DNA of 38,652 bases, taken from positions 1 to 38,652 of IMG/VR virus record IMGVR_UViG_3300036978_000670; one strand, written 5' to 3'. Origin of the DNA: a virus. Below are positions 113-38,389 of the stretch, piece by piece (positions within the stretch are counted from its first letter, which is position 1; each line of letters starts with the position of its first letter). The notes beneath the pieces are model-generated. The model worked only from the letters and a program-made list of their open reading frames with translations. It did not search any database and was not told where the DNA came from. The position numbers were made by a program, and so were the translations under genes.

Positions 113-149
113 AAAAAAAGGCCCGGCACTCGTGGGGAGTGCCGGGCCT
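113..149 (-). terminator. Strong intrinsic terminator on the minus strand
   Basis: A perfect 13-bp stem (119-131 with 137-149, arm AGGCCCGGCACTC) closes a 5-nt loop. Read leftward it is followed by seven T (113-119 are A on the plus strand), the classic Rho-independent arrangement. On the plus strand there is no T-run, so there it would act only as a 5'-end hairpin. The only leftward source nearby is the promoter at 189-217. Confidence 0.8.
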
Positions 150-182
150 GAGGCTTGGAGAAAAACTTTGGATGAAACAAGC
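113..182 (-). ncRNA. Candidate small RNA read leftward
   Basis: A leftward promoter (189-217) and a leftward terminator (113-149) bracket about 70 nt with no reading frame, which is the layout of a phage small RNA. Between the start near 182 and the terminator stem lies an unpaired pyrimidine-rich linker with TTTTTCTCC. Its complement GGAGAAAAA is exactly the ribosome-site/A-run of the lead genes of leftward operon 1 (just before 7080) and operon 3 (just before 33012). Existence rests on promoter plus terminator; targeting is inference. Confidence 0.55.
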
Positions 183-188
183 ATCCAT

Positions 189-217
189 AGTATATCAATT
201 ATCAGGTGGATGCGCAA
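189..217 (-). promoter_or_regulatory. Leftward sigma70 promoter P0
   Basis: On the minus strand TTGCGC (217-212), a 17-bp spacer and TATACT (194-189). The -35 is identical to that of the operon 3 promoter and the -10 to that of operon 1. TGGATG at 169-174 and 207-212, with its inverted copy at 182-187, flanks the start point and could be an operator. Confidence 0.6.
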
Positions 218-269: not shown

Positions 270-2033
270 ATGGCAGAACAACACGACCAGCTCAGGCTCG
301 CCACCGAAATTGCAGGGCAAGATCACGCCGCCGTCCTGCGCATCTGCATGTCCTACAAGCACGTTGGATTAGCTTATTATTTCAACATGATAAGCAATGA
401 CGTTGCTTACAACACCGATAAGGGCAAGTGGATGCGCTACGTCGGCCCCAACTGGGAGGAGGATGAAGGCAATACGGTTTTGTCTCTGATCGACATCCGG
501 GTGACTGACAATCTCGACCTACTCGTGCAGGCCGAGGAGCTGCTGATGGAGCAGCTCCAAGCTGAGGTTGATGACCTCAAAGTTCCAGTCGCTGCGGCGC
601 GGGAAGCGGTCAAGATGGCGGAGAAAGACCTCAAGCAGGGCTACAGACTGGCCGCCAAAAATGTCAATGAGGACTCATCTGACGATATTTCGCGGCGCAA
701 AAACGCCTTGGCCGCTGCCGCCGAAGAGCTGGCAGAGCAGGAGCAAGAACTCGGCATCAAGATCAGCGAGGTCAAAGCGCAGAAGCGGCTGATCTCGCAG
801 ATGACCAAAGAAATCAACAAGTACCGCGAGGCTGCGGGCCGGAACAATCTGCTGGCCGTGGCCGCCACGTCGATCAACACGCGCCGCGTGACCAGTGACA
901 TGTTCGACGCGGACACGTCTTATTTGTGCTGCCAAAACACCGTATTGCGCTTCGGCAAGGAAGGTCTGATCACCGAGGTGGAGCCGTCGCCGGACTTGCT
1001 GCTGCAAAAAAAGCTGGGCTGCGATTATGTTCGCGGTACGCGGAACACGAAGTGGCTGGCCGCTCTCCGGGAAATCTGCGGCGATGATGCCGACACGCCG
1101 CCAGAGAGATCGCAGGCGGATTTCCTGCTGCGGCTGCTGGGAGCGGCCTTGGCGGGCAAAGGAGACCTGTTGCGGCATGGCCCGATCCTGTACGGCGAGG
1201 GGGCGCAGAACGGCAAGGACGTTGTCATCAATAAGCCGATGATGGCGGTGTTTGGCACCTATGCGATGGAGCATGACTCCGCGCTGCTGATGCGAGAGCA
1301 GATTGCACGGAGTGCGACCTCGGCCAACCCGCTGATTCTTTCTCTTCCAGCCCTGCGGCTGGTCATCATGCGCGAAATCGAAAAGGGCGGGGTGCTGTCG
1401 GTCAAAAAATACAAAGAACTGACAGGAGGCGGCACAGCAAACGGGCGCGACCTGCACAGCAGCAAATACGGCCAGCGGCCCATCATCGCCTTGGTAATGC
1501 TGACAACCAACGATCCGCCGTTGATCTCTCATTCTGATGCGGGGACGCAGCTCCGCATGAGCCTCGTTCCGTTTCCATACTCATTCGTTGATGACCCTGA
1601 CAAGAACAACAAATGGCAGAAAAAACGGGATGTTGATCTTGAGGCGCAGACCAAAGAAGACTTGCCAGGCATCCTCAATCTGCTGATTGAGGGCTGGCAG
1701 GACTGGATGGCAGGCAACCGCCAGCTCCGGGTGCCACTCAAGGTTTCCATGCAGACGAAAGAGTTTTTCCATGAAATCGACGAGTTGGCCCCTTGGATTG
1801 AAGCGCGGGTTACGCATATTGACCGCGCCGCAAATCCCAACTGGCGGATTGACCGGACGGATGTCTATCGCAACTACTCTGATTGGTATGGAAAGCTCAC
1901 TGGCCGCAAGGCGATGACCTCGCACATGTTCACGCGGCTGATGCGCTCCAAGGGTTTTCCCCCGGAGAATGTAGGCGGAAAGATTTGGTTTTATGGAATA
2001 AATATCAGTGAAACTGATATCCAAACGAAATAG
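270..2033 (+). CDS. SF3 / D5-type replicative helicase
   Basis: Predicted replicative DNA helicase of the P4 alpha/D5 family, 587 residues. Residues about 85-180 are highly charged and heptad-like, probably a coiled coil. The C-terminal ATPase shows a P-loop-like YGEGAQNGKD (308-317), a Walker B-like LVIMREIE (364-371), the family motif KELTGGG (382-388) and the sensor-1 block MLTTNDPP (410-417). The P-loop is odd: the family normally has GxGxNGKS, but here one extra residue (Q313) lies before NGK and Asp replaces Ser/Thr after the lysine. No primase domain is fused; the primase follows as a separate gene. Start chosen for GAGGA five bases upstream. First gene of the rightward replication operon. 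Confidence 0.85.
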   Translation: MAEQHDQLRLATEIAGQDHAAVLRICMSYKHVGLAYYFNMISNDVAYNTDKGKWMRYVGPNWEEDEGNTVLSLIDIRVTDNLDLLVQAEELLMEQLQAEVDDLKVPVAAAREAVKMAEKDLKQGYRLAAKNVNEDSSDDISRRKNALAAAAEELAEQEQELGIKISEVKAQKRLISQMTKEINKYREAAGRNNLLAVAATSINTRRVTSDMFDADTSYLCCQNTVLRFGKEGLITEVEPSPDLLLQKKLGCDYVRGTRNTKWLAALREICGDDADTPPERSQADFLLRLLGAALAGKGDLLRHGPILYGEGAQNGKDVVINKPMMAVFGTYAMEHDSALLMREQIARSATSANPLILSLPALRLVIMREIEKGGVLSVKKYKELTGGGTANGRDLHSSKYGQRPIIALVMLTTNDPPLISHSDAGTQLRMSLVPFPYSFVDDPDKNNKWQKKRDVDLEAQTKEDLPGILNLLIEGWQDWMAGNRQLRVPLKVSMQTKEFFHEIDELAPWIEARVTHIDRAANPNWRIDRTDVYRNYSDWYGKLTGRKAMTSHMFTRLMRSKGFPPENVGGKIWFYGINISETDIQTK

Positions 2034-2050
2034 GATAACCCATGACCGGC

Positions 2051-2182
2051 CATGATGTTATGATGTTTTTTTGTCACACCTGCTTTTCCGGCGTAGATTC
2101 TTTTTTTGTTTTTTTTTAAAAAAACTATTTTTGAATCTCATATGCGCGAAAACATATAGGGGTAAAACATCATAACATCATG
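2051..2182. other. Candidate replication origin: inverted iterons in AT-rich spacer
   Basis: A perfect 19-bp inverted repeat, CATGATGTTATGATGTTTT at 2051-2069 and its complement at 2164-2182, brackets 94 bp rich in T- and A-runs. Each arm holds two tandem 8-mers ATGATGTT (2052-2059, 2060-2067; inverted copies 2166-2173, 2174-2181). Inverted pairs of short iterons flanking an AT-rich segment, between helicase and primase genes, fit an origin bound by a phage initiator. An operator or mRNA hairpin over the primase leader is the alternative. Confidence 0.45.
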
Positions 2183-2197
2183 CCAAGGAGCGCAACC

Positions 2198-3952
2198 ATG
2201 ACCCACCTCTTCAAACTCCACGCCGACGCAGGCTACAAATCTATCTCTGTCGGTTCTGCCCGCCGCGACGGAGCCTGCCCATTCTGCGCCTCAGACCGTG
2301 CGTTTCAAATTCTGCTGACGGCAAAAAGCTCAAGATGTCCAGCACTTGGATACTATCACTGCTGGGCTTGCGACAAAAAAGGCGACGCAATAACATGGCA
2401 GATGGAGGTCAACGGCCTCACCTTTCCGCAGGCCGCCGAGGCCTGCGGAGCGGAACTTGAAGACAGCCAGCAGCCCGGCAGCAAGCCGCGCCGGAAACGC
2501 CCTGTTCCCGGCCTGCCGCCGCTGCCCGCGCCGTCCTCCGCGTCCACGGCTTGGCATCCGCAGCCGGATGCTTGGCCGGAGTACGTCTCTCGCTCCGAGG
2601 CGTGGATTGAACATGCTGAAAAGCTGATCGCCGCTTGCCACGAGGCCCTACTCGCCCGCTCATCCGCCTTGGCGTGGCTGGCCCAGCGCGGCGTGACATT
2701 GGAGCTGATCAAGCAGCACCGCCTTGGTGTCCACCTCGGCGAGCGCGTGCGCGGCGAGGACTACCAGCCCTCCTACCGCATGGCTTCAGCATGGGGCATG
2801 GATGGCATTGGCGACGGCGGCAAGCAGAGCAAGATCATCATCCCTGCCGGGATTGTCATCCCCTGCTTTCCGCGCCCCAGAGAGCTGCGCCGGGTTAACA
2901 TCCGCACCATGCGCGGAGAGCCTAAGTACCGTGTCATCAAGGGCAGCCAGCCGTTCACGGTCGCCCAGACCGTGCTCAATCCGGGCCATGACGTGGCGAT
3001 TATCCTTGAGACCGAGCTGGACGGCATCGCCCTATCCGGCCTCCTGCCGGACATCACGATCATCCCGATGGGTTCCGCGACCGGGCGACCGGGCGCGGAA
3101 GTCAACAAGGAGCTGCGCCACAAAAGCCTGATCCTGCTGGCCCTTGACCGTGACGAGGCGGGCATCAAGGGCGTGGACTGGTGGCTGGAACACTACCGGC
3201 AGGCGCAGCCGTGGTGCTGTCCGGCTGGTAGTTTTTGGGTTCACCCAGCACGCCGCCGCGACGGAGATGACCACGGCAAGCCGTACAAAGACACTGGCGA
3301 CACGATCCGCGCAGGCTGTGATCAGCGGGCATGGGCCGCTGAAGGCATCGCTCTCTATGCAGCCCATGCTCCAGCAGCGCAAAAGGATGATTTTCTTTCG
3401 CAAAAAAAAGGAGCGCAGCTTACGGGCGCGGGGGAGGCCGGGAAAATTGATGCGGCTGAACTGTTGGCGTTTTGCATCCTTTGGCCGGAACACTCTGCTC
3501 AACTGCTCACTGCTGATGCCGTCAAAAACGATCATGATGCCGTCAAAATCTGCGAGCTGCTGCTTGCCAATGGTGGACAGCCTGAGCTACTGCTCGGCGC
3601 AACAGAGGGGCGTTTGCGTGACTCAGTGGAGCATGTGCTGCGGCAGGACGGCGGAGCATGGCAGTGGTTAGATGATCCGCAGCCGTTCTTTGCTCGGCTC
3701 TTGCCGCTGCGCCGCCTTGGGGAGTTACTGGGCTTGATTGGTGCGTTATTGATCAAGACAGATGGTGTATGCCGCCGTGATTACAGCAACGTACATGCCA
3801 AATGGACGGATAGCCAGCGGAATGAGGTGCTTGATATAGTGCAACGAGCTGAAGTGATTAAATATCTTGACAAGCTACCGGAAGGTCGGTACACTGGTGC
3901 AGAGCTGATTGCTATCGCTGATCACAGCACAACCTATGGAGGCGAAAAATGA
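2198..3952 (+). CDS. DNA primase (C4 zinc + TOPRIM)
   Basis: Predicted DnaG-type primase, 584 residues, making RNA primers for the helicase encoded upstream. The N-terminus carries a four-cysteine zinc site (C27, C30, C55, C58; CPFC and CWAC followed by KKGD), as in T7 gp4-like primases. A TOPRIM core follows: glutamate motif ETELDG (271-276) and metal-binding DRD (317-319). The last ~200 residues are helical and may correspond to a DnaG helicase-interaction domain. The start is the second ATG: AAGGAG sits seven bases before it, whereas an upstream ATG at 2180 lies inside the inverted repeat with no ribosome site. It overlaps the next gene by four bases (ATGA). Confidence 0.85.
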   Translation: MTHLFKLHADAGYKSISVGSARRDGACPFCASDRAFQILLTAKSSRCPALGYYHCWACDKKGDAITWQMEVNGLTFPQAAEACGAELEDSQQPGSKPRRKRPVPGLPPLPAPSSASTAWHPQPDAWPEYVSRSEAWIEHAEKLIAACHEALLARSSALAWLAQRGVTLELIKQHRLGVHLGERVRGEDYQPSYRMASAWGMDGIGDGGKQSKIIIPAGIVIPCFPRPRELRRVNIRTMRGEPKYRVIKGSQPFTVAQTVLNPGHDVAIILETELDGIALSGLLPDITIIPMGSATGRPGAEVNKELRHKSLILLALDRDEAGIKGVDWWLEHYRQAQPWCCPAGSFWVHPARRRDGDDHGKPYKDTGDTIRAGCDQRAWAAEGIALYAAHAPAAQKDDFLSQKKGAQLTGAGEAGKIDAAELLAFCILWPEHSAQLLTADAVKNDHDAVKICELLLANGGQPELLLGATEGRLRDSVEHVLRQDGGAWQWLDDPQPFFARLLPLRRLGELLGLIGALLIKTDGVCRRDYSNVHAKWTDSQRNEVLDIVQRAEVIKYLDKLPEGRYTGAELIAIADHSTTYGGEK

Positions 3953-6418: not shown

Positions 6419-7080
6419 AGCTCCTTGGTGATTTTTTGGATGTCATCTATTGCTGACATGATAGACAGCAATGCACGTCCAGCATGTTCCCTTATCCGTC
6501 TTGTTTTTTTGGTCGGTGGCATGTCGTCGCTTATTATGGTTTTTGATATTTTTTTGATTTTGCCCTCGATCACTATCAGGTCATTAACGATCTCAATAGC
6601 TGCCTCTACTTTAGGGGCTGCCTCTACTTGTTTGAGCGCGGCCTCCAGCTCGCCCAGCCGCAGCTCAAGCCTCTCTAACTCAAGCTCATCCCAGCTTGTA
6701 TCGTCGTCGCAGCCTGCATTGTCGATGTTATCCGTGTGCGTTAGGATGTGGTCCTTGACCCAAAATATCTCATCTTTGATCTCTGTGATTGTCTTGACCT
6801 CTCTCACTTCAGGGGCTGCCTCTACTTCAGGGGCTGCCTCTACTGCATACTCCCTGTATTGCCGAGGATGCGTTGCTGGCTCGGAGATAGGTGTTACAAT
6901 TATATGCCCATTACGTAACAGCGCAGCTACCGTGCTGCGGCGGATTTCAAATGCAATTTGGCCGTCTATGATTAGGTTGCCGCAATCTCCGTCTGCATCA
7001 TTGATATTAACCTTAACCCTCCGCAGGCTGTTTCTGATTGCAGCCATCGCTGTCTGCTGTGCTTGGCTCAGTTTCTTCAT
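6415..7080 (-). CDS. Coiled-coil protein leading leftward operon 1
   Basis: Hypothetical protein of 221 residues. The first ~65 residues form a compact basic domain; then come EAAPEV repeats encoded by two perfect 18-bp tandem copies (6807-6842), a long acidic coiled coil (ELERLELRLGELEAALKQ), another EAAPKVEAA unit and a basic helical tail. It starts at MKKLSQ, with GGAG before an A-run. Leader and first six codons are paralogous to those of the lead gene of operon 3 (33012). Function unknown. Confidence 0.75.
   Translation of the reverse strand: MKKLSQAQQTAMAAIRNSLRRVKVNINDADGDCGNLIIDGQIAFEIRRSTVAALLRNGHIIVTPISEPATHPRQYREYAVEAAPEVEAAPEVREVKTITEIKDEIFWVKDHILTHTDNIDNAGCDDDTSWDELELERLELRLGELEAALKQVEAAPKVEAAIEIVNDLIVIEGKIKKISKTIISDDMPPTKKTRRIREHAGRALLSIMSAIDDIQKITKEL
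6807..6842. repeat. Two 18-bp perfect tandem repeats
   Basis: CTTCAGGGGCTGCCTCTA is repeated head to tail, with two further partial copies near 6599-6629. All fall in the coding strand of the coiled-coil gene and encode EAAPEV-type linkers. Copy number could change by slippage. Confidence 0.85.
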
Positions 7081-7131
7081 TTTTTTCTCCGGCTCGTTTT
7101 TTTTACGCGGCCCCACGCCGCCCTGCATCGT
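7078..7131 (-). promoter_or_regulatory. Operon 1 leader with hairpin, paralogous to operon 3
   Basis: The ~50-nt leader contains the hairpin GCGGC-GTGGG-GCCGC, an A-run, GCCGGAG and a second A-run before ATG. The same order, with near-identical sequence, precedes the lead gene of operon 3 (33013-33050). Confidence 0.7.
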
Positions 7132-7137
7132 GATAAC

Positions 7138-7166
7138 AGTATAGCCTGTCTTGGCACGGATTGCAA
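7138..7166 (-). promoter_or_regulatory. Leftward promoter P1 of operon 1
   Basis: On the minus strand TTGCAA (7166-7161), 17-bp spacer, TATACT (7143-7138). The start would be near 7131, giving the short hairpin leader. The dyad at 7150-7181 covers the spacer and -35, a repressor-like position. Confidence 0.7.
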
Positions 7167-7838: not shown

Positions 7839-9912
7839 TCCGCAGCTGATCCGCATCAGGCGGCAAGGCAACCGCCCCTGCGAGTTAGACAGCGACTTGT
7901 TCGACTGGATGCCGTCGCACGTCCGCCGCCCTTCCCAGGGGATCACGGTTGACTACACGCCTTCCCGCGCCGCCGTCGCCGCTTTTGGCAGCGCGGAAAT
8001 CCAATCTCCTGCCGACTTCCTGCGCTCCTTGCCGGTCACGCAGGGAGCGCGGAAGGGCGGCTACTGCGATCCAGACCGTTACCCGTATCAGCCGCAACTG
8101 CTGGAGATTTTGAGGCATCCGTGCTGGCAGACTGCTGTCATTGCCGCAGGCAATCAGTCCGGCAAAAGCACGGTCGGCGAGGCGTATGTTGCTGATTGCG
8201 CAAAAAATAATCCCCGTGACATCGGCATTTTTTACCCAGCTGCCAAGCCCGTTCAAAAAAAATTCCGGGAATCCCTGATCCCGATATTCAAAAACAAAAA
8301 TTTCAGGCACTTACAGACTGGTGTCGACGATGACCTGAACATCAACTTGATCAAGCTCAACCTGATGTCCATCACCGCAGGAAATACCGCCAGCCTTCTG
8401 GACATGTCCTCGTTTTCATTTGGAATTGTGCTGTTGGAAGAGGCGGACAAGGTACAAGATGAGGTCTCAAAAAATGAGACATCCATCAAGTACCTGCTCA
8501 AGGGCCGTCTCAACGATTATGGCCCGGACGGGCGCACGATCTGGATTTCCACGCTCTCGGTGGACGGCGCGCCCTGCTCACGCGAGCTGCATGAGGTGGA
8601 GGTGCGGATTGACTTCCTGCCGCGCTGCCCGTCCTGCGGCGGCGAGCATCGGCTTGATGACAAGCATCTTGACTATGTTGTTGACAGCAAGATGTTTTCC
8701 GGCGACAGGCAGGTGCGCAACGTGCGCTATGTCTGTCCGCTGTGCAAGGCAAAGTGGACAGAGGCCGACCGCAAGGCGGCTCTGCTTGCCGGGCGTTTTG
8801 CGGCGCGGGAGCGTGGCTGGAAGGACAAGCTGGACAAGGACGGTAAGTATGTTCACGATCCGCGCCCCATCATCCAGCTGCTCAACGACGACTGGCCGCG
8901 CAGCATCGGCACCGCAATCCCTGCGCTGGCCGTGCCGACCGTGTCCATGCTCTCAATCGCTGAGATTGTCGAGCTGGCAAAGACCGACATCGCCGCCGCT
9001 AAATATCTCGCCAACCACATCCGCGCCGAGACCTTCTCGCTCTCTGGCCACCGCCGCCAGCCAGAGGCAATCCTCAAGCGGAGTTGGGGCCAGCCGCGCG
9101 GTGTTGTGCCGCCTGCCGCTGACGATTTCACTTACATCCTCTGCGGCTGTGACACGCAGCATGATTCGCTGTATTATTGCATTGTTGCTTATGGCTGGCC
9201 CTATACCCGCGACGGTCATTCCAGCCGCCCCAAAGCATGGGTGATTGACTACGGAAACATTCCAACGACCATAGAGCAGCAAGGCGAAAAAGTGAGGCTG
9301 CCCATCGCGCCGATCCTCGATCAGCTTGAAGCTAGAAAATTTCGCGATATTTACGGCAATGAAGAGCGGTCTCCCGGTGTGCTGTACCGAATCAATTCGC
9401 TCGTCATTGACGGGCGCGGCAACACTGGGATGGATAAAGCTGGAAATCGCTACAAAGAGGTAAAGGAATGGGCAGCCCTGACCAGTGGCACGATGCAGCG
9501 GTACATGAGCTGGGGCGAACAGCACGATTTCAAAGGGGAATTGTACCGATGGTCGAAAACTTCCGATCCGCTGCGTCCGGGGTTTGAAATGCTGCGGCTT
9601 GACATAGACCGCAATGCCACGGAGTTTGAGGTTGAGTCAATGCTGCTTGTCGGCCAGAACGATCCCGGCGCGTTGCAAGTCAGTAATGATTGCGACCTCT
9701 TGTTTGCGCAGCATTTGTGCGCCGCACAGCTCAATCAGCGCACAGGAAGGATGGAGCCGATTGCAGGACAGCGGCGGGATTGGCGGGATTGCTTTAGGCA
9801 GACCAGAGCACTTTATGATGCGATCTGGTCTGCCTTCAAGCAACGAGTGGCTACGGAGTCGTCGGCGGGGATTGGTGATCCTCGGAGGGTTCTGGCTCCG
9901 TGGATGCGGTGA
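7819..9912 (+). CDS. Terminase large subunit, GpA family
   Basis: ATPase-nuclease that cuts concatemers and pumps DNA into the prohead; 697 residues. The ATPase has a P-loop (GNQSGKST, 111-118) and Walker B LLEEAD (205-210). Typical of the GpA family, a zinc ribbon is inserted (CPSC 270-273, CPLC 306-309). Nuclease acidic motifs follow in CDTQHD (D445) and IDGRGNTG (D531). The family generally makes cos ends. The last 62 bp are overlapped antisense by the gene at 9851-10165, and a 12-bp inverted repeat lies in the C-terminal codons. Confidence 0.93.
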   Translation: MTKPILDPQLIRIRRQGNRPCELDSDLFDWMPSHVRRPSQGITVDYTPSRAAVAAFGSAEIQSPADFLRSLPVTQGARKGGYCDPDRYPYQPQLLEILRHPCWQTAVIAAGNQSGKSTVGEAYVADCAKNNPRDIGIFYPAAKPVQKKFRESLIPIFKNKNFRHLQTGVDDDLNINLIKLNLMSITAGNTASLLDMSSFSFGIVLLEEADKVQDEVSKNETSIKYLLKGRLNDYGPDGRTIWISTLSVDGAPCSRELHEVEVRIDFLPRCPSCGGEHRLDDKHLDYVVDSKMFSGDRQVRNVRYVCPLCKAKWTEADRKAALLAGRFAARERGWKDKLDKDGKYVHDPRPIIQLLNDDWPRSIGTAIPALAVPTVSMLSIAEIVELAKTDIAAAKYLANHIRAETFSLSGHRRQPEAILKRSWGQPRGVVPPAADDFTYILCGCDTQHDSLYYCIVAYGWPYTRDGHSSRPKAWVIDYGNIPTTIEQQGEKVRLPIAPILDQLEARKFRDIYGNEERSPGVLYRINSLVIDGRGNTGMDKAGNRYKEVKEWAALTSGTMQRYMSWGEQHDFKGELYRWSKTSDPLRPGFEMLRLDIDRNATEFEVESMLLVGQNDPGALQVSNDCDLLFAQHLCAAQLNQRTGRMEPIAGQRRDWRDCFRQTRALYDAIWSAFKQRVATESSAGIGDPRRVLAPWMR
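9796..9835. repeat. 12-bp inverted repeat in terminase 3' coding region
   Basis: AGGCAGACCAGA (9796-9807) and its exact complement (9824-9835) flank a 16-nt loop. It sits 16 nt beyond the stop of leftward operon 2 (9851), so on that strand it is placed like the stem-loops behind other leftward genes. There is no T-run. Confidence 0.7.
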
Positions 9913-10165
9913 TGATCTGATATCCTGCCTCAGCCAGTGCGTCGGCATGACTAAGGACTCCTTTAATGGATCCGTCCATTTCGCCCCAGCTCTCCACCTC
10001 CCCGCCTTGATTTGCCGGGAAAATATATGTTTCTGGTATTCCAGCGGCTATTACTGCGCTGACAGTCACGTATTCGTGACCATCGTAAGGTGGTGATAAT
10101 TTGAATAATCTTGCATCGCTATTCCACCCTTGTAAGGTTTTAACCTGCGTAGCCTGTCCGTGCAT
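9851..10165 (-). CDS. Hypothetical protein overlapping terminase antisense
   Basis: Protein of 104 residues with a compact aromatic, beta-rich core (YDGHEYVTVSAV, ETYIFPAN, WGEMDGS) and a disordered Glu/Pro/Thr tail (STEPEPSEDHQSPP). The tail is the part that lies antisense to the terminase end, suggesting extension into an existing gene. The start is the second ATG in ATGGAGGAAAAAATG, because GGAGG serves as its ribosome site. I do not recognise a function. Confidence 0.7.
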   Translation of the reverse strand: MHGQATQVKTLQGWNSDARLFKLSPPYDGHEYVTVSAVIAAGIPETYIFPANQGGEVESWGEMDGSIKGVLSHADALAEAGYQIITASTEPEPSEDHQSPPTTP

Positions 10166-10189
10166 TTTTTCCTCCATGCTTCACATTTG

Positions 10190-10214
10190 CGGGCCGAGGC
10201 CAATCCCCGGCCCG
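10190..10214 (-). repeat. Stem-loop between operon 2 genes
   Basis: CGGGCCG (10190-10196) pairs with CGGCCCG (10208-10214), 11-nt loop, six bases after the stop at 10220. It is the operon 2 member of the post-stop stem-loop series. Confidence 0.65.
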
Positions 10215-10219
10215 TTGAA

Positions 10220-10423
10220 TTACTGCTTGCCTGCGCCGGTTACGTTTTGCTTACATGATTTGTGTTCGCGGGCGAATAACTTTTCTATTCCCACGATCAT
10301 ATCGACAGATACCGGCATTGACACCTGCAACTCCTGCCCGCAGCGGCTACATCTAACCGCAAAAGGATTGACGATTGGTTTTATATCATCAATCAAGATA
10401 ACTACATGATCACTCATCTCCAT
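10220..10423 (-). CDS. Small zinc-knuckle protein
   Basis: Hypothetical protein of 67 residues with CSRC in the middle and HKSC near the C-terminus, a probable zinc site. The N-terminal part is hydrophobic and acidic (DHVVILIDDIKP). The start at 10423 lies 13 bases after the preceding stop; the ribosome site is weak. Function unknown; one of several small Cys-pair proteins in the leftward operons. Confidence 0.6.
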   Translation of the reverse strand: MEMSDHVVILIDDIKPIVNPFAVRCSRCGQELQVSMPVSVDMIVGIEKLFAREHKSCKQNVTGAGKQ

Positions 10424-11740: not shown

Positions 11741-13332
11741 CGATCTACTCGCCATCAGGCCGCCCCGCGCGGCAGGACATTGATTTCAGCCGCCAGCGGT
11801 CTGCGCTAAACGCCGGGGCCATGACCGGCCCAAACAAGGGCTGGTTGCCGAGACAGCATCAGTCCGCCGATGCCGCGCTGCTGGCCTCTAACCCCGATCT
11901 GCTGCTTGCCCGCTCGCGCTATCTCTGCGACAACGACCCGCTGATCTACACGATACGGGAGCGCGTGGTCAATCATGTCATCCGCAATGGGGCCTACCCG
12001 CAGTTTCACTTCCCGGCATCCGGCCAGATGCCGGGAAGTGAAGTCAACACGGAGTGGGAGGAGAGCTTTAGCCTCTGGGCCGAGTATTATGCCCACGCCT
12101 CAGGGTTATGGACGTATGCGATGATGCAGCGGATTATCGTATCAACTGTATTTGCTGACGGCGAGGTGCTGATCAAGCGGTCGTTTGATTCAAGCGCAGC
12201 GGGCATCTGTCCGCTGCGCTTGAATGTACTGACTATTGATCATCTGGATAAGTCAGTCAATGGCAGACAGTCGGACGGCAGTTTGGCCCTGCGCGGCGTG
12301 ATCTATGACCAGCAAGGCCGCTTTGTTGGGGCGCGGCTTTTCCCGTCTGATCCAGCCCTTGGCGGTGCGTTCGGGCAAAAATCAGAGCTGGTGCCTGCCG
12401 ACTTGCTGATCCATGTTGCCACCCCGCGCCATGCTTCACAACGGCGCGGCAGGCCGGACATTGTCCCGGTCATGCAGCTTGCCCGCGATTTGGAACTGTA
12501 TCAGCATTACACAATCCAAAAAGCAAAGCGCGAGGCTTGGCAAGTTGGTGCCCTGAAGGGCGGCACGGGCAGAGATGTGCAGGGCATTTACGGCGGCGGG
12601 AGCTGTACAGATCCAAATACAGGAGGGTCTTTGTCCCCTGTGTCTACCGCTAATTGGCCACCATCAAATTTGGCGGACGGTGGTGAAGTGATGCTTGGAG
12701 AATCCATTTTTACCGTCGTTCCACATGGGGCTGAGTTTGTTGACTTTGCTAATAACACACCGTCTGCCCAGCACGAGGCATTTTGCAAGGTCAATGGCCG
12801 CAGAATTGGCCTTGCCGCAGGCACCGGCGATCTACTCGCCACCGGCAACTATGACGGCTACTCATTCGCCGGTGCGCGGTCAGAAGCCCTTGACCGCACA
12901 GTTGATCTGTTCTGCAAGCAATTTTGCTTTGATGACATTTTGTTCAAAAAAATCAATGCGTGGTACGTTGATGCCTGCATGTTGTACGGCACTAATCCAA
13001 CACCGCTTGCAGATTATTACAAATCGCCGCAGAAATATTGGATAAAAGTTAAAACTCGCTGGTCTGGCGAGCAGTCAATGAACCGCTATCAGGATATGAC
13101 GGCGGCAAAGATGGCTATTGAAAGCAATATTTCCAATGCGCCTGCCGAAGCTGCTGTTGCAGGCGGAGATTTTTACGAAAATGTTGAAGAAAATAAACGC
13201 GCTCGGCTGGCAACGGCGGCAGCGGACTATGAAGTTTTGCAGGCGGAGGTGAAAAATGCTGAGTTGGTTGCGAAGATCAAAGCCCTCTCCGCCGGAACCG
13301 CCGGAACAGGTGCAAAAAATGAGCAAGCGTGA
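11737..13332 (+). CDS. Portal protein, lambda gpB family
   Basis: Forms the dodecameric ring at the capsid vertex through which DNA passes. Its 531 residues match the ~533 of lambda gpB. Characteristic stretches include the N-terminal SRYLCDNDPLIYTIRERVV, the VFADGEVLIKRSF block, LIHVATPRHASQRRGRPDI and the GTGDLLATGNYDGYSFAGAR segment. The last 77 bp overlap the start of the protease gene. Confidence 0.9.
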   Translation: MTIYSPSGRPARQDIDFSRQRSALNAGAMTGPNKGWLPRQHQSADAALLASNPDLLLARSRYLCDNDPLIYTIRERVVNHVIRNGAYPQFHFPASGQMPGSEVNTEWEESFSLWAEYYAHASGLWTYAMMQRIIVSTVFADGEVLIKRSFDSSAAGICPLRLNVLTIDHLDKSVNGRQSDGSLALRGVIYDQQGRFVGARLFPSDPALGGAFGQKSELVPADLLIHVATPRHASQRRGRPDIVPVMQLARDLELYQHYTIQKAKREAWQVGALKGGTGRDVQGIYGGGSCTDPNTGGSLSPVSTANWPPSNLADGGEVMLGESIFTVVPHGAEFVDFANNTPSAQHEAFCKVNGRRIGLAAGTGDLLATGNYDGYSFAGARSEALDRTVDLFCKQFCFDDILFKKINAWYVDACMLYGTNPTPLADYYKSPQKYWIKVKTRWSGEQSMNRYQDMTAAKMAIESNISNAPAEAAVAGGDFYENVEENKRARLATAAADYEVLQAEVKNAELVAKIKALSAGTAGTGAKNEQA

Positions 13333-31461: not shown

Positions 31462-31597
31462 GGCAGGCCTCCTCAATTGCCATCCTGATATAATCAGGCA
31501 CATTGCGCTTATCAGCTTTGGCTGCTTGCTCTACCAGCCGCCGGAGGGTATCCGGCAGCCAAAACTCATATCGTGATTGTCCAGTTTTCCAACTCAT
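31397..31597 (-). CDS. Ribbon-helix-helix DNA-binding protein
   Basis: 66 residues. QSRYEFWLPDTLRRLVEQAA followed by DYIRMAIEEA is a textbook Arc/CopG-type ribbon-helix-helix: a strand with alternating contacts, then two helices. Such proteins dimerise and repress their own or nearby operons; the 11-bp TTACGTA array at the operon 3 promoter is a natural candidate target. GAGGG precedes the ATG. The Ala-rich C-terminal tail runs antisense into the rightward gene. Last gene of operon 3. Confidence 0.78.
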   Translation of the reverse strand: MSWKTGQSRYEFWLPDTLRRLVEQAAKADKRNVPDYIRMAIEEACLKAEAANNAPPVAATASYHRD

Positions 31598-31608
31598 TTT
31601 TCCCTCTG

Positions 31609-31654
31609 TTCAGTTCATGTTTCCCGGCCCGTGATTGGGCCGGGAAGTGTGGTT
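31609..31654 (-). repeat. Stem-loop repeat R1
   Basis: Perfect 10-bp stem TTCCCGGCCC (31621-31630) with GGGCCGGGAA (31637-31646), loop GTGATT, flanked by TTCAGTTCATG and GTGGTT shared with R3. It follows the stop at 31657 by 11 bases and precedes the next leftward gene. Confidence 0.85.
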
Positions 31655-31656
31655 GG

Positions 31657-32025
31657 CTACTCACCGCCATCTATCCTACGAGATGTCTCCTCTAAGACCA
31701 TCTCGTACATTGCTCTTGGCAATATTTCCCGCGAAACAGCGAAGAAAGTCTTGTACTTAGCCTGTTCTATCGTTTTTCTTTGTGTTGCTATTGATGTGTG
31801 TAGCATCTTTTTGGTGATGCTTACCTCCTCTTGTATGGCAGCTGCTCGCTGCTTATTTTTTTTGAGCGAAAACGTATTGGTAGCTATTTGCTCCCTACTC
31901 TTATTAGTACGAGATAACCCAAGCATGGCTATCTCGTACTGGTGACTTATAATGCGGTCTTGTACCCGTCTCCCCTCGCTCTTGAGTGCATCTAGCTTTT
32001 CTTCCAGTTTTTTTTTGTTATCCAT
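31657..32025 (-). CDS. Coiled-coil hypothetical protein
   Basis: 122 residues, almost entirely charged heptads (KKKLEEKLDALKSEGRR; KKNKQRAAAIQEEVSITKK) with no Cys and an acidic end. The ribosome site is weak (GAG five bases before ATG). It is bracketed by stem-loop repeats R1 and R2, so it can be seen as one cassette of operon 3. Function unknown; dimerisation is the only safe inference. Confidence 0.65.
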   Translation of the reverse strand: MDNKKKLEEKLDALKSEGRRVQDRIISHQYEIAMLGLSRTNKSREQIATNTFSLKKNKQRAAAIQEEVSITKKMLHTSIATQRKTIEQAKYKTFFAVSREILPRAMYEMVLEETSRRIDGGE

Positions 32026-32035
32026 CTTGCTCGCC

Positions 32036-32075
32036 GTTCATTTCAGGTTGCCCCGGCCCGTGATTGGGCCAGGAA
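32036..32075 (-). repeat. Stem-loop repeat R2
   Basis: CCCGGCCC (32052-32059) with GGGCCAGG (32066-32073), loop GTGATT identical to R1, one mismatch in the stem. Flank TTTCAGGTTG is a diverged form of the R1/R3 flank. It begins 14 bases beyond the stop at 32087. Confidence 0.75.
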
Positions 32076-32086
32076 GTTAATCATGA

Positions 32087-32524
32087 TCAATAGCTCGTGT
32101 TGCACTTGTGGTACGGAGTGTTGGCGCAAGGCAAGTCTCCGACGCTCCTCGCGTGGCCAACCTTAGCGCATCTTGTCCATAATCTGCATGGCTTGATGCA
32201 AGGGAGTCCCGCTACGACAGCCAAGCCTCCGCCCTCACACTCGTATGCAATCAAGTTAAGCTTGTACCTCCAATCAACCTCCTGATCCCCATAGACAATG
32301 CCAGTCTCAGGGTGCCTTTTTTTATCGTGTTCCACGCCCTCAAAACCATACATCCGGTGGCCATCAATCCTTACGCTAACCACAACAGTAACCGCCTCGC
32401 CCTGCCTTTTCCGTTGGATTCCTGATATTTCGCAGTACGCTTTTTTCGCGACCACTATCGCATTAGCTGCATCAGCAATCAGGTTTGCAACGTTTACCGA
32501 GGGGGTGGTTTTTGATTCGCTCAT
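32087..32524 (-). CDS. Hypothetical protein with Cys-rich C-terminus
   Basis: 145 residues. The first ~100 form an alpha/beta domain (AVTVVVSVRIDGHRMYGFEG; YKLNLIAYECEGGGLAVVAG). The tail carries several Cys/His (LPCIKPCRLWTRCAKVGH; HKC), perhaps a zinc site. GGAG lies upstream of the ATG, before an A-run. Between stem-loop repeats R2 and R3. Not recognised. Confidence 0.65.
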   Translation of the reverse strand: MSESKTTPSVNVANLIADAANAIVVAKKAYCEISGIQRKRQGEAVTVVVSVRIDGHRMYGFEGVEHDKKRHPETGIVYGDQEVDWRYKLNLIAYECEGGGLAVVAGLPCIKPCRLWTRCAKVGHARSVGDLPCANTPYHKCNTSY

Positions 32525-32537
32525 TTTTTTTGCTCCA

Positions 32538-32583
32538 TTCAGTTCATGTTTCCCCGGCCCGCTGTGGGCCGGGAAGGTGGTTA
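32538..32583 (-). repeat. Stem-loop repeat R3
   Basis: CCCGGCCC (32553-32560) with GGGCCGGG (32566-32573), 5-nt loop, same flanks as R1 (TTCAGTTCATG on one side, GTGGTT on the other). It lies 20 bases past the stop at 32593. R1 and R3 also share a two-codon start-stop ATG AAC TGA just before the next ribosome site. Confidence 0.8.
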
Positions 32584-32592
32584 TAGTTATCG

Positions 32593-33012
32593 TTACTTGA
32601 CCGCCATCTTACGGCCCTTATACACTTGGTACAAGGGGAGATTGTACGCTGCTGCCGCACGCCTAGACTCTGCCATCATCTCCTCGTACTGGTTGCGACC
32701 AAGGTTTGTCACGTCAATGCCGTCATCCTTGATGGTGATATAATTTTTTGCGACGTACACTCTGGTTATGCCCTCTTTTGCCCAGACGTTGCCGCCAAGA
32801 TTGCTGGCCATCTCCTGAGCTACCTCGATCAGTGTTGTTGCTTTTTTTGCCACCACTGCCATCATAACAACTGCCTCCTTAACCTTGTTGATTACCTGCA
32901 CACATGCTGCTTTCATTGCTTTTCTCCATTCCGCCTTCCAATTCCACGCCCCTGTTGCTGCTTTTTTTGCTGCCTGATAATTGAGGCTTGCGATTTGGCT
33001 TACTTTTTTCAT
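32593..33012 (-). CDS. Lead gene of leftward operon 3, helical hypothetical protein
   Basis: 139 residues. A long basic Ala-rich helical N-terminus (NYQAAKKAATGAWNWKAEW) is followed by a hydrophobic helix (VVMMAVVAKKATTLIEVAQE) and a strand-rich C-terminal part (GITRVYVAKNYITIKDDGID). Start at MKKVSQ, with GGAG and an A-run. The leader and first codons are paralogous to the operon 1 lead gene, though the rest of the protein is not obviously related. Function unknown. Confidence 0.7.
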   Translation of the reverse strand: MKKVSQIASLNYQAAKKAATGAWNWKAEWRKAMKAACVQVINKVKEAVVMMAVVAKKATTLIEVAQEMASNLGGNVWAKEGITRVYVAKNYITIKDDGIDVTNLGRNQYEEMMAESRRAAAAYNLPLYQVYKGRKMAVK

Positions 33013-33050
33013 TTTTTTTCTCCGGCTTTTTTTTTGCGGCCTCACGCCGC
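33013..33050 (-). promoter_or_regulatory. Operon 3 leader with hairpin, paralogous to operon 1
   Basis: The leader holds GCGGC-GTGAG-GCCGC (5-bp stem), an A-run, GCCGGAG, a second A-run and ATG. Order and sequence match 7078-7131. A perfect complement to TTTTTCTCC of the candidate small RNA lies at the ribosome site. Confidence 0.7.
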
Positions 33051-33057
33051 TCATCTG

Positions 33058-33090
33058 TTACGTATATATTACGTAATTATTACGTAACGC
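33058..33090. promoter_or_regulatory. Three tandem 11-bp TTACGTA repeats over promoter P3
   Basis: TTACGTATATA, TTACGTAATTA and TTACGTAACGC follow each other exactly every 11 bp (starts 33058, 33069, 33080), placing palindromic TACGTA boxes on one face of the helix. They cover the -10 and spacer of the leftward promoter, the expected layout of a cooperative repressor, for example the operon's own ribbon-helix-helix protein. Confidence 0.7.
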
Positions 33091-33094
33091 GCAA
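33066..33094 (-). promoter_or_regulatory. Leftward promoter P3 of operon 3
   Basis: On the minus strand TTGCGC (33094-33089), 17-bp spacer, TAATAT (33071-33066). The -35 equals that of P0. The start near 33059 gives a ~47-nt leader, the same geometry as operon 1. Confidence 0.7.
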
Positions 33095-33166
33095 CAAAAT
33101 AATGCACGGCCATAAAAAAAAATGCGCACCCCCAAATATTGGCGGTATAATATGCTTGACCGGCAA
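33080..33166 (-). CDS. Possible 28-residue hydrophobic leader peptide
   Basis: On the minus strand GGAGGAGG lies four to five bases before TTG (33166), opening 28 codons whose product is hydrophobic (FGGAHFFLWPCIILLRV) and ends inside the promoter P3 region. A TATAAT at 33250-33245 could transcribe it. The ribosome site is strong, but the same bases can be read as the pyrimidine run of a rightward RNA, so this is one of two competing readings. Confidence 0.3.
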   Translation of the reverse strand: MPVKHIIPPIFGGAHFFLWPCIILLRVT

Positions 33167-37648: not shown

Positions 37649-38389
37649 ATGCGCCGACTGCTGTGCATGGCGGCTTGGCTGCTATTCGTTCACATCGGGC
37701 TTGCCCTTGCCGCAGGCCCGGTAATCCCTCTTGGCCTGCCTGATGAGGCCATCCTGCGCGGCCTTGGGCCGTTGTCCTGCCGGGCTGATCTGCCCACTGA
37801 TGATCCCGTAAAAAACAAGCCATGTAGCCGTTATGAGTTGCTTGAGCATGGCATGACGCAGCAGAGCCTTGCTGTTGCCCTGACCGTACTCGCTGAGGTA
37901 TATCCCGGCGATACAGAGGCGGCAAAGCTGGTGATGATCACCATGTTCACACGCCGCGCTGTGGTCAGTGAGCCGGGCGCGGAGGTCACCTTGACTGAGA
38001 TTGTCTCCCAGCGCAAGCAATACACCGGCTGGGCCAAGGGGCGGCTTAATCCGGCCACTATTGCCCAGTATCTCCTGCCGACTATGCAGATGGCCGCTGC
38101 GTTCACCAAGGGCGATTACGATAGCGAGCCGCTGCGTTTCACGCACTATGCCCGGTGCGATGCCAATCCATCGTGGATGCAAGCAGCGCGTAAGGCGGGC
38201 ATCAAAATCCTTGTGTATCACGAGCATTGCTGGATCACAGGGACAGCGGATGATCCTGCGCTGATCCTCTGGCCGCGTCCTAATGGTGCGCGGAAAGGTG
38301 TGAGTTGGCGGAGAGTGAGAGACAGTGCGCCTGCGATGTTCGCAGCGATTCACGGGCCGCGAACGGCGACGGGCTTGGCGATGAGGTGA
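37649..38389 (+). CDS. SleB/CwlJ-type cell wall hydrolase (endolysin)
   Basis: 246 residues with an N-terminal signal or signal-arrest segment (LLCMAAWLLFVHIGLALA). The domain resembles SleB-type hydrolases: LAEVYPGDTEAAKLVM with the candidate catalytic Glu, SQRKQYTGWAKG, FTHYARC...PSWM and a late HEHCW. These enzymes cleave peptidoglycan glycan strands. Nine bases after the lipoprotein gene, in the lysis position of the late operon. The secretory N-terminus implies export without needing holin lesions. Confidence 0.68.
   Translation: MRRLLCMAAWLLFVHIGLALAAGPVIPLGLPDEAILRGLGPLSCRADLPTDDPVKNKPCSRYELLEHGMTQQSLAVALTVLAEVYPGDTEAAKLVMITMFTRRAVVSEPGAEVTLTEIVSQRKQYTGWAKGRLNPATIAQYLLPTMQMAAAFTKGDYDSEPLRFTHYARCDANPSWMQAARKAGIKILVYHEHCWITGTADDPALILWPRPNGARKGVSWRRVRDSAPAMFAAIHGPRTATGLAMR

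Follow-up and report, generated by a model that had tools for sequence, protein, structure and literature searches.

The DNA analysed here, referred to as the window, is the entire virus record IMGVR_UViG_3300036978_000670, 38,652 bases in length. Since a 19-base direct repeat is present at both of its ends, the genome is probably circularly complete. Its genes include those for a terminase, portal, capsid-protease and tape measure protein, as well as a D5/P4-type primase-helicase and a DnaG-like primase (2180–3952); no integrase or repressor was recognised among the proteins scanned. The portal gene contains two long inverted repeats (12005–12042 and 12188–12225), with arms of 15–16 bp and loops of 6–8. 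The small-RNA site lies inside the gap of approximately 510 nt between the last rightward gene, which ends at 38,389, and the primase-helicase gene.

DNA searches of named phage and plasmid collections revealed no close relative, comparison of the terminase with bacterial genomes gave short distant matches only, and neither the primase, portal and capsid nor the hairpin DNA located relatives among the viral contigs searched. Using terminase patterns, one relative was found, viral contig IMGVR_UViG_3300049828_000433 (L023), the terminase of which is 81% identical; alignment of the DnaG-like protein returned the same contig only. The first 260 bases of L023 correspond to positions 15–278 of the window with 86% identity, and the RNA unit is found at the same place. 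The features of the site, and of the two leftward operons considered with it, are as follows.

84–112, + strand: probable promoter of the replication operon (TTGACA-17-CAAAAT), a 10/12 match with a predicted start at ~119; both hexamers are retained in L023.
113–119, − strand: T-run of the terminator; identical in L023.
113–183, − strand: predicted antisense RNA of ~70 nt, its start placed from the promoter and its end from the terminator.
119–149, − strand: terminator hairpin of 13 bp; the stem is kept in L023 with a paired A-T insertion.
131–137, − strand: terminator loop CCCCACG including the closing pair, a proposed kissing loop; complement of the operon 1 loop, co-varying in L023.
150–183, − strand: 5' domain of the RNA with the linker UUUUUCUCC and a weak 5-bp stem (GCUUG/CAAGC); the least conserved segment.
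189–217, − strand: putative promoter for the antisense RNA, TTGCGC-17-TATACT, its -10 box extended by a TG at 197–196; mostly kept in L023.
203–228, no strand: dyad CAGGT-N16-ACCTG across the -35 box, a possible operator; the sole such dyad in the window, 26/26 identical in L023.
270–2033, + strand: D5/P4-type primase-helicase; in L023 this place is taken by a distinct gene of similar kind.
7138–7166, − strand: operon 1 promoter (TTGCAA-17-TATACT); the L023 counterpart is TTGCAA-17-TATATT.
7107–7121, − strand: operon 1 leader hairpin (GCGGC-GTGGG-GCCGC); its loop and closing pair, CGUGGGG, are the proposed target.
7082–7090, − strand: operon 1 ribosome site GGAGAAAAA, ahead of the start codon at 7080; the linker is complementary to it in the window phage only.
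33036–33050, − strand: operon 3 leader hairpin (GCGGC-GTGAG-GCCGC), a paralogue of the operon 1 leader with one mismatch to the RNA loop.
33015–33023, − strand: operon 3 ribosome site GGAGAAAAA, an exact 9-mer match, with the start codon at 33012.

The original prediction described a leftward promoter, about 70 nt without coding capacity and a 13-bp stem with seven T, and all of these are present in the letters as described. On the minus strand, TTGCGC (217–212) is separated by a 17-nt spacer from TATACT (194–189), and one base ahead of the -10 box stands a TG that the earlier description had not included. The -35 box matches only 3/6 consensus positions, and the window holds 19 extended -10 sites of comparable quality. 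The stem at 149–119 has 13 perfect pairs and a 5-nt loop and is followed by T7; by pairs and by G+C pairs alike, it ranks as the best terminator-like site in the window. The folding energy of the RNA is -34 kcal/mol, with a z of -6.6 against shuffles. No Rfam family reached its gathering score at the site, and no coding signal was detected in the ORFs across it (72–260 on the + strand, and 172–372). A small protein from either of these frames was rejected, the + frame 72–260 being also broken by an early stop in L023.

The -35 box, the dyad spanning it and the T-run are 100% identical in L023; the figure is 90–93% around and upstream of the + promoter and 85% for the terminator, compared with 47% for the RNA 5' domain (76–100% for the other segments). 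The leftward promoter of the relative retains TTGCGC, the 17-nt spacer and the TG, and has TATGCT as its -10 box; in its terminator the 13-bp stem and T7 are kept, and the loop and linker are altered. A short RNA gene opposite the start of the replication gene is probably real. The -10 box of the + promoter (CAAAAT) is weak. As its start is predicted at ~119, the replication leader would be antisense to the whole RNA, an overlap with the probable leader that the original prediction had not pointed out.

Several other regions were compared between the two genomes. The primase-helicase behind the shared regulatory region differs (window 270–2033, L023:252–2060) while being the same kind of gene, which reads as a module swap at the start codon. 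The block at 31,464–33,096 carries operon 3 and its own copy of the operon-1-type leader; its absence from L023 suggests that it was inserted recently, bringing this leader along. Upstream of leftward operon 2 there is a non-coding leader of ~165 nt (window 11330–11158, L023 ~11390–11195, both on the minus strand), bounded by a promoter, TTGACG-17-TATTAT, on one side and a T9 terminator on the other, and near-identical in L023 despite differing upstream sequence and a differing following gene. It has no Rfam match and folds no better than shuffles (z 0.56), and is possibly a new phage ncRNA or attenuator. Ahead of one leftward gene, a hairpin with a ribosome site (window 10165–10234, minus strand) is 97% identical in L023, where two copies occur (9667–9733 and 10038–10085); it looks like a start-associated element that has been duplicated.

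Operons 1 and 3 do have paralogous leaders, which share a 60-nt block, and a model of these leaders finds strongly only those two. The site is not a third copy, since the covariance model of the leaders missed it among 23 matches to E 10. It had been proposed that the unpaired linker of the RNA, complementary over nine bases to the ribosome sites of both operons, silences or coordinates them. The nine-base complementarity is exact: GGAGAAAAA is found at four places, 157 (+, the site), 7082 (−), 33015 (−) and 7206 (−), the last of which is not a start site. Allowing one mismatch, 19 sites were obtained against 7.8 expected, and GGAGAAAAA is therefore a common ribosome-site type in the window. 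The helix energy of the RNA 5' domain was calculated against 41 start regions, with shuffled 5' domains as the control. Operons 1 and 3 were not distinctive, being tied 6th–7th, and five other starts paired equally well or better. Some two starts attained the same energy with 88% of the shuffled domains, and both named starts with only 1.5%. A gapped duplex measure put operon 1 sixth and operon 3 outside the best twelve, the shuffles equalling the best energy in 38%. The linker is anti-Shine-Dalgarno-like and not specific. When the relative was inspected for co-variation of linker and leader, the linker was found to have changed, its energy with the operon 1 ribosome region going from -22.4 kcal/mol in the window to -9.0 in L023, an outcome that the original prediction itself had named as refuting it. 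Because the linker is 47% identical and this pairing is lost, silencing of operons 1 and 3 through it is unsupported; on the loss, the energy ranks and the shuffles, linker-to-ribosome-site pairing was rejected as the main mechanism.

Another contact, to which the original prediction made no reference, was found between hairpin loops. In the window, the terminator loop CCCCACG and the operon 1 leader loop CGUGGGG (closing pairs included) are perfect antiparallel complements over 7 bp; operon 3, with the loop CGUGAGG, mismatches the RNA at one position. In L023 the two loops read CCCUAUA and CAUAGGG and form six pairs, with two compensatory changes from C-G to U-A and one edge pair lost. The stem of the operon 1 hairpin is unchanged in L023, so only its loop has moved. 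All perfect hairpins of both genomes were searched for the motifs GTGGGG (window) and ATAGGG (L023). Within each genome, its own six-base motif is present in that sense in the hairpins of the site and operon 1 only, the one exception being an ATAGGG hairpin within a window gene, where ATAGGG is not the motif. Two hairpins taken at random have a loop 6-mer in common in ~0.3% of cases, and the chance of both loops drifting to the same new 6-mer is ~0.003–0.02. Complementary loops of 6–7 nt which co-vary between relatives (7 bp in the window and 6 bp in L023; two genomes) are the mark of a kissing pair. Since the match was noticed after the fact and two genomes were compared, we regard this co-variation as strong but not final. 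The RNA seems to recognise operon 1 through its terminator loop, and not via the unpaired linker. The stems of the terminator and of the operon 1 hairpin are not complementary, so that pairing cannot extend past 6–7 bp, and since ~16 nt separate the operon 1 hairpin from the ribosome site downstream, a translation block is not straightforward to account for. What survives of the original prediction is a dedicated leftward RNA, kept in L023, with a probable link to operon 1; the linker pairing and the part given to operon 3 are not supported. A single relative can thus overturn a linker-based guess at the target and indicate another contact.

What can be read off the two genomes is the presence and conservation of the signals for promoter and terminator, together with the complementarity and the co-variation of the loops; from these we infer an OOP-like antisense RNA, complementary to the replication leader and making a kissing contact with operon 1, and we give this reading roughly an even chance. 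The RNA would run leftward from ~183 to 113, opposite the probable 5' leader of the replication operon, which is rightward (promoter 84–112, primase at 270), and would be fully complementary to that leader, the + transcript itself being predicted. In trans it may contact the operon 1 leader by a kissing pair between CCCCACG of the terminator loop and CGUGGGG. Expression of the replication gene and of operon 1 would then be tied together by the RNA, most simply by lowering both, and a repressor may act on the dyad over the -35 box of the RNA promoter. A terminator loop that matches, and changes in step with, the leader loop of a distant operon would offer a compact means of coordinating two early operons. 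Perhaps such a two-target RNA is also a specificity switch, in which the RNA shares one hairpin loop, by complementarity, both with the replication leader and with an early operon unlinked to it, sister phages carrying orthogonal sets; we consider this extension quite unlikely. If true, exchanged loop sets (GUGGG vs AUAGG) would decide which co-infecting phages can be silenced, that is, RNA heteroimmunity.

The main rival places the function on the + strand, where the same loop sequence is present. The nutL/nutR boxB elements of phage lambda and putL/putR of HK022 are small leader hairpins common to two early operons, with phage-specific loops. The replication and operon 1 leaders might likewise share a cis RNA site for a phage protein or the polymerase, their loops matching by sharing one ligand and changing together between phages, and loop identity and co-variation fit this equally well. 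The operon 1 and operon 3 hairpins are of boxB size (~15 nt), with 15 nt in a 5-bp stem and 5-nt loop, and each stands just downstream of a promoter, and the start of the + promoter is predicted at the foot of the site hairpin. Compared with nut and put, however, the stems are very different and the site has a terminator and a promoter on the opposite strand. Next to the loop, the 13-bp stem of the site has nothing in common with that of operon 1, whose closing pair is C-G where the L023 site has U-G. Inspection of the operon 1 leader by eye revealed no boxA, and no N-like protein was recognised, most early proteins being without any match. A shared + strand site would also leave the conserved T-run and leftward promoter unexplained; these two features favour the RNA, though the sequences alone cannot separate the readings, and we rate the + strand site as a real if unlikely possibility.

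It is unlikely, too, that the RNA acts in cis only, as an OOP-like or plasmid-type countertranscript on the replication leader, with the operon 1 match a coincidence. Such an RNA would keep its promoter, terminator and leader overlap while linker and loop drift, as is seen here, drift being costless for a cis antisense RNA, but it is improbable that the loop of operon 1, 7 kb off, would have changed to match by chance. We think it highly unlikely that the hairpin is a plain terminator that stops stray leftward transcription, without a functional small RNA: promoter-like matches do arise by chance, as the comparable extended -10 sites attest, but this promoter stands one RNA-length from the terminator, its -35 box, spacer length and TG are kept in L023, and the loops co-vary. 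Least probable of all is silencing of operons 1 and 3 by the linker UUUUUCUCC via their ribosome sites, for which the exact match to both and the rarity of shuffled domains pairing as well at the two named starts are outweighed by the other starts and by the divergence in L023.

Among known RNA families, alphaR8/MmgR (RF00519), of ~77 nt, resembles the predicted RNA in length and in an anti-Shine-Dalgarno-like stretch ahead of the terminator. The full-length match scores 27.9 bits against a gathering cut-off of 41 bits, with an E of 5e-4 for the 300-base region and 0.07 for the window; the best score in five bacterial genomes (~20 Mb) is 24.7 bits. The family is defined by the single-stranded 10-mer UUUCCUCCCU (PMC12559287), which is absent from the window RNA, where UUUUUCUCCA is found instead. 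Because this 10-mer is missing and L023 scores 14.4 bits, membership was rejected, the score being also below the cut-off. In a separate sample of 20 viral contigs, picked by a 17-base motif in a scan covering up to 120 stretches, at least 14 carry alphaR8/MmgR sRNAs above the Rfam cut-off (e.g. L058:247–325, L031:159–241 and L096:1467–1540), one such sRNA lying just upstream of a terminase gene.

The C4 RNA of phages P1 and P7 and the CI RNA of P4 are small immunity antisense RNAs that act through short complementary blocks on phage leaders and differ in specificity from one related phage to another. They are processed from a same-strand transcript, whereas the RNA proposed here would be made from the other strand, by a promoter of its own. 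Plasmids and lambda already provide examples of antisense RNAs at replication genes. The OOP RNA of lambda (pO-oop-tO), which is short and runs leftward, has a promoter and a terminator of its own by the replication gene, and a repressor (LexA) site in the promoter region (PMC5869508). The predicted window RNA likewise combines its own promoter and an intrinsic terminator, next to a replication gene, with a short RNA antisense to part of a rightward early transcript, the latter being predicted. OOP overlaps the 3' end of cII, whereas the window RNA overlaps the 5' leader of the primase gene and, unlike OOP, bears a loop whose complement lies in a second operon, far away; the likeness is one of anatomy. 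In ColE1 RNAI/RNAII and pMV158 RNAII, specificity is set by changes in a loop, which the partner loop has to follow (PMC9458437, PMC4485353). In these systems, as is proposed for the window, an antisense RNA faces the leader of a replication function; in the window, the co-varying partner loop would lie in an unlinked operon, and not only in the overlapping sense RNA.
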